A stretch of DNA of 64,000 bases. Origin: Acidaminococcus sp. Its GTDB lineage: Bacteria; Bacillota; Negativicutes; Acidaminococcales; Acidaminococcaceae. Under the pieces are notes generated by a model. The model saw only the letters and a list, made by a program, of their open reading frames with translations, ran no database searches and was not told the DNA's origin. A program made the position numbers and the translations under genes. The stretch spans positions 2,934,946-2,998,945 of the forward strand of contig JAKVOM010000001.1 in NCBI GenBank assembly GCA_022482815.1, read 5' to 3'. Positions 3,254 to 63,805 of this stretch are shown piece after piece (the stretch's first letter is position 1; each line of letters starts with the position of its first letter).

Positions 3254-4603
3254 ATGTCCTTTACTAATTACACTATTCAAAATAATGCAGAATGTCAAGA
3301 TGTCTTTTACAATGTCTTCATGCCGGAAGACCCTTTTGATGACAGCCAGGAGATTGTTATTTGCAGTGAAAAGAAATATACCGACTTCCGTTGTCCTAAA
3401 TGTGGTCAGAAAATGTATTCTTACGAGCCATTTTCCACCTACTTGAAAAGTTTTCCTGCGTATCCTGAGCATACCAGGATGATCCGCTTTGAAGGGCATC
3501 GCTTCCGTTGCTCCTGCTGCCATGCAACCATCACTGAGCCTATTCCCTTTAAATATCCAGGAACTCGCATTACCATGAGAGCTTCTCTCTGGATTGAGAC
3601 GCTGCTTCGTAATGGAATCCCTGCCAATGCAATTGCCAAGATGTCAGGAATTCACTGGAGCACGGTTCGCTATGTCCACAAACAGCTCATGGACGAATCT
3701 CTCGATAAATATGAAATGGAATTGGAGCTGACCTCTTACAAGCCCCGTTTCCTGGCCATCGATGAGTTTGCTATCCATAAGGGACACACCTATGCCACTT
3801 GCGTCATGGATTTAGCGACAGGTTATATTCTCTGGGTTGGCAGAGGTCGGGCGATAGCTGACTTCGAGCATTTCTTCAAGGAATATGATCAGACAAAGCT
3901 GACAGAGGTCAAGGCAGTCGCCATGGATATGAACGCTTCCTACAACAAGCTGGTACAAGAACATCTGCCGCAAGCTAAGGTCGTGTATGATCGTTACCAC
4001 ATGCAGGCTCAATTCGGGAAGGAAGTATTAGGTGTAGTAAGACTTGATGAGGCCAGAATGCATAGGGATAAAGCCAACGACATGCAAGAAGCATTAAAAG
4101 ACGCAAGTGCTGAAGACAAGCCGGCTTTGAAAGAGCGGATATCCGAGGAAAAGAAGAACTACCGCACATTGAAGAAAGTCCGCTGGCCGTTACTCACCAA
4201 TGAAGATAGGCTGAATCCTAAGAGCAAAGAAGCGTTGCAGGCCATCTTTGCAGAGCACGAGGATCTGGCAATATGTTATTCCATGAAGGAAGAGATGGTA
4301 GCCCTCTATGAATTAAGGGACTATGACAAGGCTCTTGCAGGATGGAAGCGCTGGTTTAAAGCTGCACTAGGCAGCGGGATTCCGGCCCTGGTTAGGTTTG
4401 CTAAGATTAAGCTGCCAAGGATAGACGGTCTGGTGAACCATGCCCTGTACCCGATAAACACAGGGAAGCTTGAAGGCTTCAACAACAAGATTAAAGTGGC
4501 CAAAAGAAGAGCGTACGGATACAGAGATGATGAGTACTTTTTCACGTTAATTCGCTACCTCTCAATTCCGACCGTAAGGGGTATACTCCCGAAAAAACCG
4601 TGA
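3254..4603 (+). CDS. ISL3-family transposase
   Basis: 449 aa. The N-terminal zinc-finger region (CPKCGQ near residue 40, then CSCC) and a helix-turn-helix region (NAIAKMSGIHWSTVRYV) precede the DDE catalytic domain. Candidate catalytic acids are Asp in AIDEFAIHKG, Asp in AVAMDMNASY and Glu in TGKLEGFNNKIK. The start is supported by GGGAGGAG just upstream. The frame is uninterrupted and fills the IS, stopping 6 bp from its right end. It mobilises the surrounding element. Confidence 0.96.
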   Translation: MSFTNYTIQNNAECQDVFYNVFMPEDPFDDSQEIVICSEKKYTDFRCPKCGQKMYSYEPFSTYLKSFPAYPEHTRMIRFEGHRFRCSCCHATITEPIPFKYPGTRITMRASLWIETLLRNGIPANAIAKMSGIHWSTVRYVHKQLMDESLDKYEMELELTSYKPRFLAIDEFAIHKGHTYATCVMDLATGYILWVGRGRAIADFEHFFKEYDQTKLTEVKAVAMDMNASYNKLVQEHLPQAKVVYDRYHMQAQFGKEVLGVVRLDEARMHRDKANDMQEALKDASAEDKPALKERISEEKKNYRTLKKVRWPLLTNEDRLNPKSKEALQAIFAEHEDLAICYSMKEEMVALYELRDYDKALAGWKRWFKAALGSGIPALVRFAKIKLPRIDGLVNHALYPINTGKLEGFNNKIKVAKRRAYGYRDDEYFFTLIRYLSIPTVRGILPKKP

Positions 4604-4617
4604 AGAACCTCTTTTTT

Positions 4618-4840
4618 AATTGTTTCTGATAGACTCTGCTGCAAGACGGCCTCAGATACGCGAAAGGTAGGCGTGGGGCCCGGAAGATGTACACAAATAG
4701 TACCTCGACGGGTCACACGCCTACCTGACAAAGTAGATGAGGTCGGATTCTGCAGAGGATGTCGGAAACTTCCTTAGAAAAAGCTCTGGGCAAAGCGGCG
4801 TCGGAGACATGTCGACGACCCGATTTGCCCAGGTGCCTTT
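4618..4840 (+). ncRNA. Structured RNA-like element, copy A
   Basis: Shares a conserved fold and core with copies at 44559 (minus strand) and 60790. Stem P1: ACTCTGC 4632-4638 / GCAGAGG 4752-4758. P2: GGCCTCA 4648-4654 / TGAGGTC 4738-4744. P3: GGTAGGCGTG 4666-4675 / CACGCCTACC 4716-4725, capped by the conserved core CCGGAAGATGTACACAAA... with GTAC/GTAC pairing. Then GGAAACTTCCTTAGAAAAA and a terminal hairpin CTGGGCAAA / TTTGCCCAG (4786-4832) followed by GGTGCCTTTA. On the minus strand this hairpin plus AGCTTTTTCT is a good terminator for the gene ending at 4843. Its 5' edge (about 3131-3150) was separated by the ISL3 insertion. Function unknown; not a family I can name. Confidence 0.72.
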
Positions 4841-4842
4841 AA

Positions 4843-6312
4843 TCAAGAATCAGACCTGGCATAAGCATTCTTCATCCCACAACTAGCCTCATACAACACC
4901 TTCCCCAGACAATCATCCGTCTCCTTCTGCGCCATGGCGGCAATGGTGTCATTGCACTTTTCAAGGAAGGTCTGGACAGAACCTTGATAAGAGGCCTTAT
5001 CAAATTGCTCAAGAAGTGCATGCGCCTGCGCTCCGACACTATTCTGGTAGCGTTCGATAATGGAGGCACAGCGCCCGTAGTGGGCGTCGGCAAGGGCGGC
5101 AATGAGACGATTAGCCCAATAGAATTGGTGCGTATCCGGTTCCTTGCCCGTTTCGGCAAAGTAGGCCGGCGTCTTTGTCACATTGGCATAGAATGGGACA
5201 AAAGCGTTAAAGACGTTGGAACTTTCGGCAATCCATTCGATAGCCATCCGCTCTTTATCCACATCCGGACGCAGCTGCGTCAGCGCAAGGAAATTATTCC
5301 GGTTGATACCGATAGCGCGATATTTTCCTCTGAGGCTGCTGTCTCCATACCGTCCGTAACAATCGTAGGGTGTGCCTTGATAATGGCCGCTAAGGGCATA
5401 TTTGACGTCCTCAGGCGTTATCTTTCTTTCGGGGATGAGCGACCAGGGAAGGTCATCATCCTCCGGAGTAAAATCGGCGTCCGGTCCGTCCCAGAGATAA
5501 GTCCGGGGATTCAGGTAGCGCAGCATGAACCAGGCACGCGGCGTGTTGTACGTATGGTCGGCGTCATCGTGGCTGCCAAAGGCAAGCCGTGCATTAAAGG
5601 CTCTGTCTTTCTTTAGGGAAGATGCACGCCCCGCTGCCGATGGCATAAGATCCAGATGGTGATCACGGATAAATTCTGCAAGGTCCGGAGAGCACATGTG
5701 CTCCTTTTGCTTACCCAGAGCGTCCTCCATATCAAAGCTGTCGATTCCCTGCTGATTCGGCATGACGACATAGCGGTCATCGGGCACTTTTCTGGCAATC
5801 CAGTGATGCCCGCCGATGGTTTCAAGCCACCAGACTTCCTGTGCATCCTGAAATCCGATACCATTCATTTCATAGGTCCCGTACCGTGCAAGAAGATCCC
5901 CCAGCCGCTTTACGCCTTCGCGGGCACTGTGAATATACGGCAGGACGAGAAGCAGCATATCCTCTTCACCGATACCCTCTTTGACGAGCGGATCGGCACC
6001 GAGCACGCGGTAATTAGAAGTAATCGTTTCCGTTTCGGACATAGCCACATTCGCTTCGTTGATGCCGGCTTCACCCCAGAAACCTTCATCTGGCAAAGCA
6101 TTCGGCATCGCCGTGTAGCGCATCGGTTCCTCTTTCAAATCGATGGAGAATTTGGAAAGTACGGACTGATAATGGCGGGGCTGATCCTTGGGATTCACAA
6201 CGATGAATTTTTTGGGAGTAAACTGTCCGGACGGAGAGTCCTCGTTGCGTGCCATCATCGTAGAACCGTCATATGTTGCTTTTCTTCCCACCAATAACGT
6301 TGTACAAGGCAT
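4843..6312 (-). CDS. C69-family dipeptidase (PepD-like)
   Basis: 489 aa. Starts MPCTTLLVGRKAT: after Met (and Pro) removal the Cys becomes the N-terminal nucleophile typical of C69 Ntn-hydrolases. The motifs GSTMMARNEDS and WGEAGINEANVAMSETET are characteristic. The ATG at 6312 is chosen over a TTG nine bases upstream because Cys must be near the N terminus and AGGAGG lies 11 nt away. The protein would hydrolyse dipeptides in the cytoplasm. The gene starts 27 bp after the amylase fusion stop, so it is probably the last cistron of the glycogen operon, an unexpected partner. Its transcript would end in the hairpin of structured element A. Confidence 0.93.
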   Translation of the reverse strand: MPCTTLLVGRKATYDGSTMMARNEDSPSGQFTPKKFIVVNPKDQPRHYQSVLSKFSIDLKEEPMRYTAMPNALPDEGFWGEAGINEANVAMSETETITSNYRVLGADPLVKEGIGEEDMLLLVLPYIHSAREGVKRLGDLLARYGTYEMNGIGFQDAQEVWWLETIGGHHWIARKVPDDRYVVMPNQQGIDSFDMEDALGKQKEHMCSPDLAEFIRDHHLDLMPSAAGRASSLKKDRAFNARLAFGSHDDADHTYNTPRAWFMLRYLNPRTYLWDGPDADFTPEDDDLPWSLIPERKITPEDVKYALSGHYQGTPYDCYGRYGDSSLRGKYRAIGINRNNFLALTQLRPDVDKERMAIEWIAESSNVFNAFVPFYANVTKTPAYFAETGKEPDTHQFYWANRLIAALADAHYGRCASIIERYQNSVGAQAHALLEQFDKASYQGSVQTFLEKCNDTIAAMAQKETDDCLGKVLYEASCGMKNAYARSDS

Positions 6313-6339
6313 AAAAATCAAATCCTCCTCTGTCCTTTT

Positions 6340-42965: not shown

Positions 42966-43019
42966 TTTTTCAAATCGGTATAATAGAGGGCAGATATGAA
43001 CGAAGGAGGATTTTCTTTT

Positions 43020-44543
43020 ATGTTTCATTCCAGCTTGACCCGCGGCGTTCTTATTGCCGCGTTATCTTTTGCATTTGCGCTGCCGGCGTTTGGGCCTTCC
43101 ATTTCTGCGGAAGCAGCCACCAAGGCCGCAGCCACTACGACCGCCAAAAAGACAGTAAAGTCGACGGCTAAGAAAACCACTAAAAAGACTGCCAGAAAAA
43201 CAACAAAGGCTAAAAAGACGACCAAAAAGCCGGTGAGTGCCGTCAGCCCCATTAAAGGCGGCGTACCTTCCCAGGCTTCCAAGGCAGCCCTCACCAAAGA
43301 ACTCAACGCCATGATTGGCAATACGGGCACCCACGTACCGGGGCTCGGCGTCATCGCCTTCAAGGACGGCAAAGAAGTCTACAGCCATTTTGCCGGACGC
43401 CGTCATATCGGAGCCAGTTCCGGCGGCAGCGACCTGCCGATTACGCGGGATACGCGCTTCCGGGTAGCATCCGTCTCGAAGATGTTCACGGGCTTTACGA
43501 TCATGCAGCTCGTCGACCAGGGCAAGATTGACCTTGACGAAGATATCAGTCATTACCTCGGCTATACACTGCGCAACCCGAATTTCCCAAACACCCCGAT
43601 TACGGTACGGATGCTCCTTTCCCACACGTCGTCCCTGCGTGACGGCAGCTACTATTCTTTGCCGCCTTCCGTCTCCATTCGGGAATATTTCCGTCCCGGC
43701 AGCGACTACTACAGCAGTAACCACTTCGGTTCCAAATGGCAGGCACCGGGAAAGTATTTCGTCTATGCCAATATCAACTTCGGTGTCCTCGGCACCATCA
43801 TTGAACGCGTCACGGGACAGCGTTTCGATAAATACCTGAAGTCCCATATCCTGACCGACCTCGACACGGAAGCCAGCTTCTTTACGGCAACGCTGTCGCC
43901 GCACGCTTTCTCTAACCTCGGCACCATCTACCGCAAGAACAAAGGCTCCTACTGGAATGAAACGGGTCCCTGGATTCCGCAGTGCGATGACTTCCGCGGC
44001 AAGCAGCCCACGCCCTGGACTTCCCCCAGCGGTTACAGCCTGAGTAACTACCGCGTCGGTACGAACGGCACGATTTTCGCGCCGCAGGGCGGTCTCCGTA
44101 TTTCCTACGAAGAATTGAGCCATGCGCTGCGCCTCCTCATCAACAAAGGTGTCTTCAACGGCCGCACCGTCGTTCGTCCCGATCTCATGAAAGAAATGAT
44201 GACGGAACAATGGCGCTATACGCCGGCCCATAAGAACGGCGATACCTACGGCGGTTCCATCGAAGGCTACGGTCTTTCCCTCTACCCGATTTACGGCAAA
44301 GGCACAAGCCGCGTCGTCAAAGACCATGTGCTCAACCTGTGGGGACACACCGGTGAAGCCTATGGCCTCCTCTCCGGCGTCTTCGTTATCCCCGGCACGA
44401 AGGACGGCTTCATCTACATCATGAATGGCGAAGCTGTTGCCGAAGATACGGATTCCCGCAGCGCCGGTAAATTCAGCGGCAACTATATTTGGGAAGAGAA
44501 TATTATGAATGCGATTTGCAGGCATTTGTATTTCGGTGAATAA
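43020..44543 (+). CDS. Secreted serine hydrolase, class C beta-lactamase / penicillin-binding-protein-like
   Basis: 507 aa. Signal peptide residues 1-33 (GVLIAALSFAFALPAFG). Residues about 35-75 are a Lys/Thr/Ala-rich linker (KKTVKSTAKKTTKKTARK). The catalytic domain has SxxK in VASVSKMFTG, YxN in FVYANINFG and HTG in LWGHTGEAYG, so all three active-site boxes are present. Family members are D-Ala-D-Ala peptidases, esterases or beta-lactamases. The basic linker may attach it to anionic wall polymers. ATG at 43020 with AAGGAGG. Terminated by the hairpin of structured element B. Confidence 0.9.
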   Translation: MFHSSLTRGVLIAALSFAFALPAFGPSISAEAATKAAATTTAKKTVKSTAKKTTKKTARKTTKAKKTTKKPVSAVSPIKGGVPSQASKAALTKELNAMIGNTGTHVPGLGVIAFKDGKEVYSHFAGRRHIGASSGGSDLPITRDTRFRVASVSKMFTGFTIMQLVDQGKIDLDEDISHYLGYTLRNPNFPNTPITVRMLLSHTSSLRDGSYYSLPPSVSIREYFRPGSDYYSSNHFGSKWQAPGKYFVYANINFGVLGTIIERVTGQRFDKYLKSHILTDLDTEASFFTATLSPHAFSNLGTIYRKNKGSYWNETGPWIPQCDDFRGKQPTPWTSPSGYSLSNYRVGTNGTIFAPQGGLRISYEELSHALRLLINKGVFNGRTVVRPDLMKEMMTEQWRYTPAHKNGDTYGGSIEGYGLSLYPIYGKGTSRVVKDHVLNLWGHTGEAYGLLSGVFVIPGTKDGFIYIMNGEAVAEDTDSRSAGKFSGNYIWEENIMNAICRHLYFGE

Positions 44544-44558: not shown

Positions 44559-44795
44559 AAAGGCACCTGGCCAAATAGAGTCCTCGACTTGTCTCGGACG
44601 TCTATTTGGCCAGAGTTTTTTCTAAGGAAGTTTCCGCCGTCCTCTGCAGAATCCAACTCCATCTGCTTTGTCAGACCGGATTGTGACCACTCGACGTACG
44701 TCTTTTGTACGACTTCGTGGCCCCAATCCAGTCTTTCGCGCATATGGAGCTGTCTTGCAGCAGAGTCCATCAGAAACAAAAGTAAAAAGACAACG
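44559..44795 (-). ncRNA. Structured RNA-like element, copy B
   Basis: Minus-strand copy. Same order of stems as copy A with compensating changes: P1 GACTCTGC / GCAGAGG, P2 AGCTCCAT / ATGGAGTT, P3 ACTGGATTG (44725-44733) / CAATCCGGT (44675-44683), apical CCAC / GTGG and CGTAC / GTACG, then GGAAACTTCCTTAGAAAAA and terminal hairpin CTGGCCAAATAGA / TCTATTTGGCCAG (44567-44613). Read on the plus strand, the terminal hairpin plus TTTTTTCT terminates the serine hydrolase gene 15 bp upstream. Open frames through it are artefacts. Confidence 0.72.
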
Positions 44796-60789: not shown

Positions 60790-61028
60790 CCACACCTCTT
60801 TTTAATTTTCTTTTTATGAACGGCACAGAAGATAAGCCCAGATGCAAGGAAGACGGGCGCGGGGCCCAGAAGATGTACACAAATAGTACCTCGATGGGTC
60901 ACGCGCCCGTCTGACACAGCAGATGGGTTTATATTTCTGCGCCGGGCAGAAAAAGTTTCCTTAGAAAAAGCTCCGCAGCCGACAGCGCTCGAAACCAGTC
61001 GAGAACCTGGCGGCTGCGGGTGCCTTTA
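60790..61028 (+). ncRNA. Structured RNA-like element, copy C
   Basis: P1 GGCACAGAA (60822-60830) / TTCTGCGCC (60935-60943), P2 ATAAGCCCA (60832-60840) / TGGGTTTAT (60924-60932), P3 GACGGGCGCG (60852-60861) / CGCGCCCGTC (60902-60911). The apical core CCAGAAGATGTACACAAA...GTACCTCGA is nearly identical to copy A, although P1-P3 sequences differ, so the stems are conserved by covariation. Terminal hairpin CCGCAGCCG / CGGCTGCGG (60973-61019), then GGTGCCTTTA. CCACACCTCTTTTTAATT at its 5' edge matches the flank of copy A. Confidence 0.72.
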
Positions 61029-61029
61029 A

Positions 61030-61102
61030 ATGCAGTAACTCAATGATAAGAACCATCCTAGCGTGCGAGGTCCTACCGAGCACCAGATTATCTGAGGTGC
61101 CT
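61030..61102 (+). other. Spacer ending in a second GGTGCCTTTA
   Basis: About 70 bp between copy C and the LysR stop. It ends GAGGTGCCTTTACTCA, repeating the element's 3' end, so a second, mostly lost copy or a nested insertion is possible. Confidence 0.35.
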
Positions 61103-61984
61103 TTACTCACTCTGCCTGCTCAGTTCCCTATAAAACCGAATCAACTCCCTCATCCCCTCCGACCTATACTGCTGCCTCCTCCAGATAAGGCTCAGGCTGA
61201 TTTTCATCGGTTCCTGAAAAGGCAGGAACCGGAGATTCGCGTCATGCGAAACCAGTTCCTTGTAAAGGAACCCCACAGCCTGCTGTTTCCTGACAAGCTG
61301 GAGCATTGTATAGAGCTGGGATGTACGGCACAGGATGTGGGGCTTCTGCCCCGCCCTGACAAAACGCTCCTGCAAAAGTTCCGACTGAAAGAAAAGTTCC
61401 GGCATCATGACCAGCTTTTCATTTCTCAGGTCTTTAGCCTGCACGGCCTCCCGTTCTGCCAGCGGATGGGTCCGGCTGACAATCGCGCCGGATTCCAGGA
61501 TAGTTACGGGCACCGACTCAAAACCGTTCGGCACGGGCTGAGTATGAATGACAAAGGCCAGATCCAGAAGCTCGTGTTCCAATTCCTGTTCGACGACCGC
61601 CCTCCGGTTTTCTGTGACTTCAAGGCGCAGCTCCGGATGATCACTTAAAAAATTTGCGTAAAGACTGGGTAAAAGCCATCCTCCCAGAATCGGTGGCACG
61701 CCCAGCCGAATAGAATGCCGTTTAGCGCCGAGATCCTGCATGATGCTTACGAGCTTATCCGCATTTTCAGTGAGAGCACGGGACATTTTCAGGAGTCTTT
61801 CGCCCTCCGCCGTGAGTTCCATGCCCCGATACTGGCGGACAAAAAGCCCTACGCCGAATTCCTTTTCCAGCGCCCGGATTGCACTCGAAAGTGACGGCTG
61901 AGAAACGTGGAGAGCTTCTGCGGCCTGGGTCAAGTTGCCGCAGGCACAAACGGTCTGAAAATAACGCAGCTGTGTCAGATTCAT
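61103..61984 (-). CDS. LysR-family transcriptional regulator
   Basis: 293 aa. N-terminal winged helix (MNLTQLRYFQTVCACGNLTQAAEALHVSQPSLSSAI) and a C-terminal effector domain starting near residue 90. Divergent from the DUF1275 gene with a 204-bp shared region that contains a dyad, so it probably controls itself and that gene. Effector unknown. AGGAGG precedes the ATG. Confidence 0.93.
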   Translation of the reverse strand: MNLTQLRYFQTVCACGNLTQAAEALHVSQPSLSSAIRALEKEFGVGLFVRQYRGMELTAEGERLLKMSRALTENADKLVSIMQDLGAKRHSIRLGVPPILGGWLLPSLYANFLSDHPELRLEVTENRRAVVEQELEHELLDLAFVIHTQPVPNGFESVPVTILESGAIVSRTHPLAEREAVQAKDLRNEKLVMMPELFFQSELLQERFVRAGQKPHILCRTSQLYTMLQLVRKQQAVGFLYKELVSHDANLRFLPFQEPMKISLSLIWRRQQYRSEGMRELIRFYRELSRQSE

Positions 61985-63009: not shown

Positions 63010-63245
63010 TAAAAGAAGTGGTTAGATGTTAGTGTCTAGTGGGTAGTACACCCGTGCAGGCAGGTTGTTTGGGCAAAGCCCAAGGCAGATAGCAGATGGC
63101 AGTTAGCAGATAGCTGCAGTTGGCATAAAAGCGCTTTTAGCCGCTAACCTTAATGCAGAACACATTTTTTTATAATTTCAGAGCCAAATTGCTGCAGCAA
63201 TTTGGCCTCCACAGGCGGACGGCGAGCTACGGGCGGTCGGCGGCT
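63010..63245 (+). repeat. Intergenic mosaic repeat block 15
   Basis: AGTGGGTAGTACACCCGTGCAGGCAG, CAGATAGCAGATGGCAGTTAGC, and AAATTGCTGCAGCAATTTGGCC with TCCACAGGCGGACGGCG. No gene. Confidence 0.75.
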
Positions 63246-63269
63246 TTCAAGGTAGGTGTGAGGCAATTT

Positions 63270-63365
63270 TTCGTACGAAAAGAAGCGCCGACAAAACTAC
63301 CTTATTCAGGTTAGCGTTTTATCAGCGCAACAGCTACATTATTTGGCCTTACTTTTATTTTCGTC
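63270..63365 (-). repeat. Duplicated gene-end/terminator segment, distal copy
   Basis: About 90 bp closely matching 63755-63853, which holds the end and terminator of the minus-strand gene at the window edge. The copy keeps GCGCCGACAAAAC / GTTTTATCAGCGC and GGCCTTACTTTTATTTTCGTC. It looks like the leftover 3' end of a duplicated gene. Confidence 0.6.
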
Positions 63366-63399
63366 TCGAGTGTAAGTCAAGCTTTTGTCAACAACGAGA

Positions 63400-63485
63400 G
63401 ATCAGCGCAGATGCGTGAAGATGGCACGTTGAATTAGTCATCGGTTCCCTTATATCTGCGCCCATCTTCTGTGCCGTCCATAAAA
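63400..63485 (-). ncRNA. Possible fragment of the structured element (minus strand)
   Basis: The minus strand reads ATGGACGGCACAGAAGATG, like the 5' part of copy C (ATGAACGGCACAGAAGATA), followed by GCGCAGAT / ATCTGCGC and GGCAC / GTGCC pairings. The conserved apical core is missing. Low confidence. Confidence 0.35.
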
Positions 63486-63639
63486 AGATGTTGTGAGATG
63501 GAGTGAAGTGTGATGAATGTTACCTGAGAAAAAAATAACGCCGCTTTTGGCGGCTGTTTGTAATACATTAACACTTTATGAGAATTTTGCGTCTAATTGC
63601 AGTAAGCGAATAATATTACCTGCCATTTCCATTGTCGAT

Positions 63640-63750
63640 TTTGTGGATTGCTGCAAGACGGGTTCAAGCACAAGGAAGAAAGGATTGCAGCCAGGAGGCG
63701 TACGGTTTTGGGTACGTCGACTGGATTGCAATTCTTTCTGACACAGTGAT
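63640..63750 (+). ncRNA. Structured RNA-like element, copy D (truncated)
   Basis: GATTGCTGCAAGACGGGTTC matches the 5' part of copy A. P3 GAAAGGATTGCA (63678-63689) / TGCAATTCTTTC (63727-63738) with apical CCAG / CTGG and GCGTAC / GTACGTC retains the fold, then TGACACAG. The P1/P2 3' strands and the usual terminal hairpin are absent; a different terminator follows directly. Confidence 0.55.
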
Positions 63751-63760
63751 TACGAAAAGA

Positions 63761-63805
63761 ATCGCCGACAAAACAACCTAGTTCAAGTTAGTGTTTTGTC
63801 GGCGC
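63761..63805 (-). terminator. Terminator of the partial gene at the window end
   Basis: On the minus strand GCCGACAAAACACTAAC pairs with GTTGTTTTGTCGGC, followed by GATTCTTTTCG, starting about 10 bp after the stop. Confidence 0.75.

Follow-up and report, generated by a model that had tools for sequence, protein, structure and literature searches.

The locus analyzed here raised the question of whether a repeated hairpin, whose arms differ between copies and still pair, is the gene of a structured RNA or a mobile piece of DNA. The window, i.e., the whole stretch of 64,000 nucleotides under analysis, corresponds to positions 2934946-2998945 of a 3.06-Mb single-contig Acidaminococcus genome, which supports the Negativicutes host implied by the original prediction. 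That prediction described three near-complete copies and one truncated copy of the element, and the four were found, three of them in full. Copy 1, composed of the P1-P2-P3 core and a right-hand hairpin, was placed by direct reading, blastn, and alignment at 4618-4840 on the plus strand, and its core, equivalent to positions 1-133 of the covariance model R1, was matched at 4630-4762 (plus strand, 148.9 bits). The same three approaches located copy 2 at 44559-44781 on the minus strand, a detail missing from the original prediction, with the core at 44637-44769 (minus strand, 145.5 bits). Copy 3, identified by direct reading and alignment, covered 60805-61027 on the plus strand (core at 60817-60949, plus strand, 129.7 bits), and the truncated copy 4 was matched by the model at 63644-63776, also on the plus strand (45.9 bits). 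The P3 stems previously quoted were present in all four copies, with one G.T wobble in two of them, and no protein gene was found inside the element, as had been proposed. The gene for an ISL3-family transposase (PF01610, 3254-4603) ended directly left of copy 1; another copy of the element adjoined the end of the same transposase at locus L044 (8558-8783), and this transposase end was observed with no element copy at locus L026 (4568-4678). Left of copy 4, inspection by eye showed further degraded hairpin remnants that retain parts of the loop motif (63160-63520).

The element proved to be highly repeated in its own genome, where a blastn search with window positions 4600-4860 matched 51 places (second-best E value, 1.4e-68) and model R1 recognized at least 42 copies, 42 being the number scored out of 824 candidates. 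At the DNA level, only one of 61 genomes, its own, was matched. The core is one long interrupted hairpin of 133 nt, and most whole own copies showed the same order: the P1-P2-P3 core follows a T run, which a small hairpin often precedes, and to the right of the core comes the right-hand hairpin, named D. The latter is a separate module (about 4785-4832 in copy 1), and seven places with D and no neighboring core were found among the matches listed. On the opposite strand, a T run follows D, and the gap between D and the stop of the right-hand gene is usually a few bases. D of copy 1, delimited by eye at 4785-4832 on the minus strand, leads into a T run and looks like a terminator for the gene at 4843-6321, and D of copy 2 (44567-44613, plus strand, by eye), followed by TTTTTT on the plus strand, looks like one for the gene at 42996-44543. 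The remnant of a second D-type hairpin was seen by eye between copy 3 and the LysR gene at 61103-61984 (61050-61104, minus strand). Several types of P1, of the P3 apex, and of D were distinguished by eye in an alignment, reassorted from one own copy to the next. Some copies, also by eye, contain further hairpins of similar design. In three own copies (L031, L035, and L041), the apical part was replaced by another repeat (GGCGGAACTGAGCGCCAACGATCC...), a nested insertion into the hairpin. Half copies were observed in congeners: at L078 (G006:C31), 5' halves cut near the apical loop stood in series left of full copies (3938-4062 and 6108-6233), and a rough count in eight congener loci gave 11 cases with the 5' half only and 6 with the 3' half only, figures that include some full copies whose variant arm escaped the pattern. 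Other copies had lost P3 and kept the loop motif alone, GCGAA-NNN-CGACAAAG (L081, 1550698-1550772 and 8734; L077, 10204), and look as if the inner hairpin were precisely deleted.

The fold is a rod of about 130 nt made by one strand, with short GA-rich internal loops, AGAT/AGAT, GCGAA/GACAAA, and GGAG/CGA, the last one under a GTAC apical hairpin. Beside the three loops, nearer the hairpin base, a G.A mismatch was found. Among the 31 uninterrupted own copies, G16.A121 was present in 30, G26.A111 in 29, A35.G101 in 31, and G54.A81 in 30; position 27.110 was A.G in 21 and G-C in 8, and position 47.89 was G.A in 20, A.G in 8, and G-C in 3. With the structure named by hand, 93.1% of the 1240 cells of these 31 copies paired, compared with 76.1 in shuffles, and changes on both sides were found in 221 cells, compared with 70.6; the covariation score was 0.501 against 0.186. 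None of 500 shuffles reached any of these three values. Both sides changed in 26 of the 40 pairs, and pairing dropped to 26-40% when the 3' partner was slid by 1-3 columns. The measure of further pair types was unexceptional, being equally high in 71 of the 500 shuffles.

Next, the fold was followed into other genomes with covariance models, as the original prediction had recommended, and counting the centre genome each time, R1 matched 25 of 80 relatives, and R2, at an E value of 1e-4 or less, matched 29 of the 398 genomes from the phylum. With model R3, matches were obtained in 28 of the 286 genomes from the phylum of MAG nzgw469 (taken as a Patescibacterium on size and sequence similarity), in 29 of the 274 from the class of a Chromatiales MAG, and in 113 of the 247 from the phylum of a Desulfobulbaceae MAG, where many genomes had at least 13 copies. 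By these models, the fold extends to other Bacillota, Desulfobacterota, Patescibacteria, and Gammaproteobacteria; in 13 R3 matches that were inspected, the loop motif was clear in ten and partial in L252, L253, and L287. A strict pattern found 113 stretches in the genome collection, where a hand estimate expects about 0.1 by chance. The carriers of 80 of these 113 stretches included Acidaminococcus, Phascolarctobacterium, Christensenella, Peptococcaceae, Oscillospiraceae, Desulfobulbaceae and other Deltaproteobacteria MAGs, Syntrophobacterales, Bradymonadales, Chromatiales, and Patescibacteria lineages (Nomura-, Kaiser-, Zambryski-, and Gracilibacteria, and Paceibacterota). At loci L152 and L161, a contig of MAG AS02xzSISU_80 equaled in length (5678) one of the Acidaminococcaceae member G015, so the Acholeplasmataceae label of this MAG is probably wrong. 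Searches at the sequence level gave no blastn match to copy 1 in plasmids and phages and no exact pattern match in viral contigs.

When 83 diverse sequences from several phyla were aligned, all 40 pairs showed two-sided changes, 89.8% of the cells paired, a figure not reached in 500 shuffles, and the covariation score was 0.817 against 0.180; this alignment was fitted to the structure and includes one antisense row (L033 +). The GA-rich loops were conserved across phyla, and the stems varied freely yet stayed paired. The claim that compensating changes keep the fold was borne out by these covariation statistics, in both the 31-copy and the 83-sequence alignments. The isolated mismatches indicated which strand folds: on the strand carrying AGATGC-GCGAA / GACAAAGC-AGAT, GT exceeded AC and GA exceeded TC. 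The respective ratios were 61:15 and 56:11 in own copies (n = 31), 54:15 and 34:1 in genus-mate copies (n = 28), 27:9 and 29:4 in copies of other families (n = 19), and 16:8 and 21:4 for P3 only in 60 distinct wide-range copies. In the 83-sequence alignment, GT:AC was 194:74, but by column the GT excess was smaller, 19 pairs versus 12. Moreover, the predicted RNA energy was lower for this strand in 59 of 60 distant copies. The folded form is a single strand, and RNA and single-stranded DNA are alike compatible with it, as the original prediction had left them. It could be argued that nothing selects the fold, and that gene conversion together with quasipalindrome correction keeps the arms paired; the own copies, which exchange stem types in a mosaic fashion, would fit, and so would one site (site 3, below) where two species have different but paired stems. 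This is highly improbable, since the loops are conserved across phyla while the stems change, and such correction is not expected to bias the mismatches of one strand toward GT and GA.

The position of the element relative to genes was analyzed in 104 copies, 35 from the own genome, 25 from the genus, 16 from the family, and 28 from the phylum; the 35 include four with nested insertions, and the set excludes the remaining nested or partial copies of the own genome. A codon-based caller placed the right-hand gene on the minus strand in 83 of the 90 copies having one, and the stop codon of this gene was at most 100 nt away in 65 copies, compared with 7 for a left-hand gene on the plus strand. 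In the 71 pattern copies from outside Acidaminococcus (11 Acidaminococcus loci were left out, and L174 and L194 were not re-found), the right-hand gene was on the minus strand in 54 of 68, with the stop within 30 nt in 39 of those 54, and the right gap was shorter than the left one in 39 of 48. Most copies, then, adjoin the stop of a right-hand gene that is directed toward them, a rule that those of the MAG DBS2-1.bin13 fitted poorly. No shared neighbor gene emerged, as the commonest Pfam family was present in 5 of 101 flanking proteins (taken from 113), among the 25 of 127 families listed. The preferred strand is opposite to the mRNA of the right-hand gene, and because this gene transcribes the other strand, the preferred fold is absent from its mRNA.

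This arrangement bears on whether the element is a cassette that terminates transcription in both directions and is retained for ending the neighboring transcripts. The D hairpin and T run that adjoin the stop codon in own copies, and the A/T-flanked stems of several Acidaminococcaceae copies, point that way; against it, the base of the hairpin showed by eye no clear T run on either strand in A. fermentans and several small-genome MAGs, and terminators do not need the conserved internal loops. A simple terminator is quite unlikely because clear T runs were not found outside the D module of the own genome. A cellular regulatory RNA would be transcribed from the motif strand, antisense to the 3' end of the neighbor, acting in mRNA decay or protein binding, with its spread being secondary. 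The strand-specific wobble and the GA loops would suit such an RNA, as would the many housekeeping families among the flanking proteins (25 of 127 families listed) and seven copies that on inspection lay in sense orientation beside rRNA or tRNA genes (L070, L108, L117, L120, L123, L284, and L286). Two of these seven are in apparent rRNA spacers (L070, 1501-1627; L120, 291-418), and the other five adjoin tRNA genes. Section 10 of PMC2229807 adds that the effects of the enterobacterial repeat ERIC on mRNA stability depend on its orientation. However, the presence of the element was patchy, some genomes having many copies while their close relatives yielded none, and in the own genome, terminator-like T runs flank most cores on both sides. 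We thus regard a cellular RNA as unlikely, and strong covariation alone is no proof of one because it is coupled here to a mobile element.

The evidence for mobility came from two sources. First, three sites were compared in five Acidaminococcus genomes, and the presence of the element differed between species. At site 1, it was found in G006 and G002 and was absent from G007, G004, and G008; at site 2, it was found in G006 only; and at site 3, it was in G006 and G007, with the different but paired stems referred to above, and absent from G002 and G004 (G008 was unreadable). Read by eye, the insertions fell within about 12 bases of the ancestral stop codon, and the right flank, GGCTAACGCATAACC, has stop codons in two frames; the left flanks could not be aligned to read a target duplication. 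Second, the element in MAG DBS2-1.bin13 measures 153-155 bp and has GTAACTATCCA ends, with the hairpin as its right end, and a perfect 8-bp duplication of the flanks was found in all 13 measured copies (CCGATGGC was common to two). UBA11700 provided one further copy with an 8/8 duplication, and three other copies with the distal repeat had flank matches of 0, 5, and 6 of 8. Altogether, 14 of the 17 copies with the distal repeat showed 8/8 flanks, in Desulfobacterota only, and shuffled flanks reached 7/8 in 2051 of 34000 trials; the same test included nine more copies without the distal repeat and two without a clear right end. The terminal inverted repeats and target duplication of a MITE were, therefore, found in Desulfobacterota only. 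The species-level differences and the 8-bp duplications, taken together, show that the element is mobile. It is mobile DNA and not a demonstrated RNA gene.

We then considered enzymes that could mobilize it. Inverted repeats starting with GTAA and 8-bp duplications, which we take to be the signature of IS66, make the DBS2-1.bin13 copies resemble an IS66-type MITE, a likeness not seen in Acidaminococcus. An IS66 partner was rejected, as the transposase was detected in 2 of 11 genomes, with only a weak fragment in DBS2-1.bin13. The hairpin might also be a single-stranded DNA site recombined like an integron attC, or one mobilized by a Y1 enzyme of the REP/RAYT type. attC sites lie at gene ends in a fixed orientation and fold on the strand opposite to the mRNA, and the element resembles them in all three respects. 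The attC reading raised by this resemblance was dropped, since the end boxes GTTRRRY / RYYYAAC were absent and, by eye, the left ends of the P1 types differ, and the copies share no conserved end sequence. The Y1 transposase was present in 43 of 80 relatives, with six matches in the own genome; it had no match in the element-rich G006 (13 copies) and G063 (9 copies), and 12 of the 27 carriers searched gave none, many of them being incomplete MAGs. A Y1/RAYT partner was rejected on the basis of these element-rich genomes. REPs themselves are 20-40 bp long and carry GTAG or CGTC tags, according to PMC3733652, which also argues against this explanation, and we consider it very unlikely in either form.

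The comparison with known families began with Rfam. At the gathering cut-off, the window gave no match, and 20 other loci gave tRNA, tmRNA, and T-box only. At a relaxed E value, the matches were low-scoring, the best being mir-988 with 25.7 bits against a cut-off of 72, and further comparisons of this kind gave one match at 12.9 bits and, in another case, none. Distant gammaproteobacterial members suggested a likeness to ERIC, also named IRU or RU-1, which PMC2759123 and PMC2229807 describe as an intergenic, multi-copy 127-bp palindrome forming a stable stem-loop. Two 40-kb E. coli stretches, each centered on an ERIC copy, were searched, with all filters off, using R3, whose seed contains no ERIC. 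The two best matches in the 80,088 bases were the two ERIC copies, each 127 bp and covering the full model length; the scores were weak, 15.0 and 13.6 bits (E values of 0.45 and 1.1), with the next match at 11.7 bits, and both count as one observation because the two copies are near-identical. The E values alone are not significant, but the ranks and the exact ends are telling. The conserved arms matched ERIC at 21 of 27 positions, compared with at most 20 for the 400 base shuffles and at most 19 for the 84 neighboring E. coli pieces; the ERIC arms are AGTTGCAGGAAGGC / GACGCAGCACATG, and those of the element family are such as AGATGCAAGGAAGGC / GACACAGCAGATG. Kinship to ERIC is likely, although the model score behind it is weak. 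The view that the family was not a recognized one, thus, stood insofar as no Rfam family was reached at the cut-off, and it was weakened by the probable kinship to ERIC. A match to a described MITE family, named in advance as a refutation, was encountered in part: ERIC ranked first and second in register, but with a weak score that leaves kinship unproven.

The best explanation, to which we give a probability of about 60%, is a mobile palindrome of the ERIC kind, non-autonomous and under selection for folding on one strand. A trans-acting factor would recognize the folded single strand by its loops and not by the stem sequence, and would copy the element to new sites. Because it carries stop codons itself, the element would be tolerated when inserted at, or shortly before, the stop of a gene. 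That the folded strand would serve mobility rather than a cell function is the least certain of these steps. More tentatively, ERIC may be one twig of an ancient, cross-phylum mobile superfamily defined by its fold, in which a GA-loop rod of DNA or RNA would be read by a factor, and which would home to stop codons in a fixed orientation and supply a new stop; this is possible rather than probable. Bacterial typing, including the fingerprinting of E. coli, has used ERIC repeats for decades. If ERIC belongs to a structure-defined family of Bacillota, Desulfobacterota, Patescibacteria, and Gammaproteobacteria, the conserved loops would point to the recognized part, and the factor could be sought where copies are numerous. 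The host range and fold conservation exceed what we found described: in the open-licence literature, we found no description outside enterobacteria and Vibrio, a weak negative, and PMC8040213 reports many candidate RNAs that may include the element. With a covariance model now in existence, the family can be annotated.

The likeness to ERIC extends to several traits and stops at others. ERIC, an imperfect palindrome of about 127 bp, is similar in length to the 133-nt core, and both are long interrupted hairpins. De Gregorio reportedly noted in 2005 that ERIC occurs in one preferred orientation next to stop codons, as does the element (right-hand gene on the minus strand in 83/90 and 54/68, as given above). 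One of the two E. coli ERIC copies combined a stop codon with the expected orientation: L293 ends 5 bases from the ybhI stop in the orientation of the Acidaminococcus element, and L292 lies in sense between pgk and fbaA. Delihas (PMC2759123) described an RU-1/ERIC at a gene 3' end that apparently removed the normal stop codon, much as seen for the Acidaminococcus element. In contrast, a TA target duplication is reported for ERIC, unlike the 8-bp duplications in one deltaproteobacterium; the hosts belong to other phyla, Acidaminococcus being neither an enterobacterium nor a relative of one; the stems are unrelated; and the element in Acidaminococcus is a composite with D hairpins, unlike ERIC. 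REP, REPIN, and BIME sequences, according to PMC3733652, are palindromes found mostly downstream of genes, with sub-families that have alternative complementary stem bases, and the element resembles them in both position and complementary stem variants. It differs from REP by its 133-nt core and, by eye, by the lack of a shared end tetranucleotide in the alignment, and from REP/REPIN by having no obligatory resident Y1/RAYT (none in G006 and G063). By description, it can also be likened to the Rickettsia palindromic elements (RPE), which are 105-146 bp in length, form long stem-loops, and occur inside genes.
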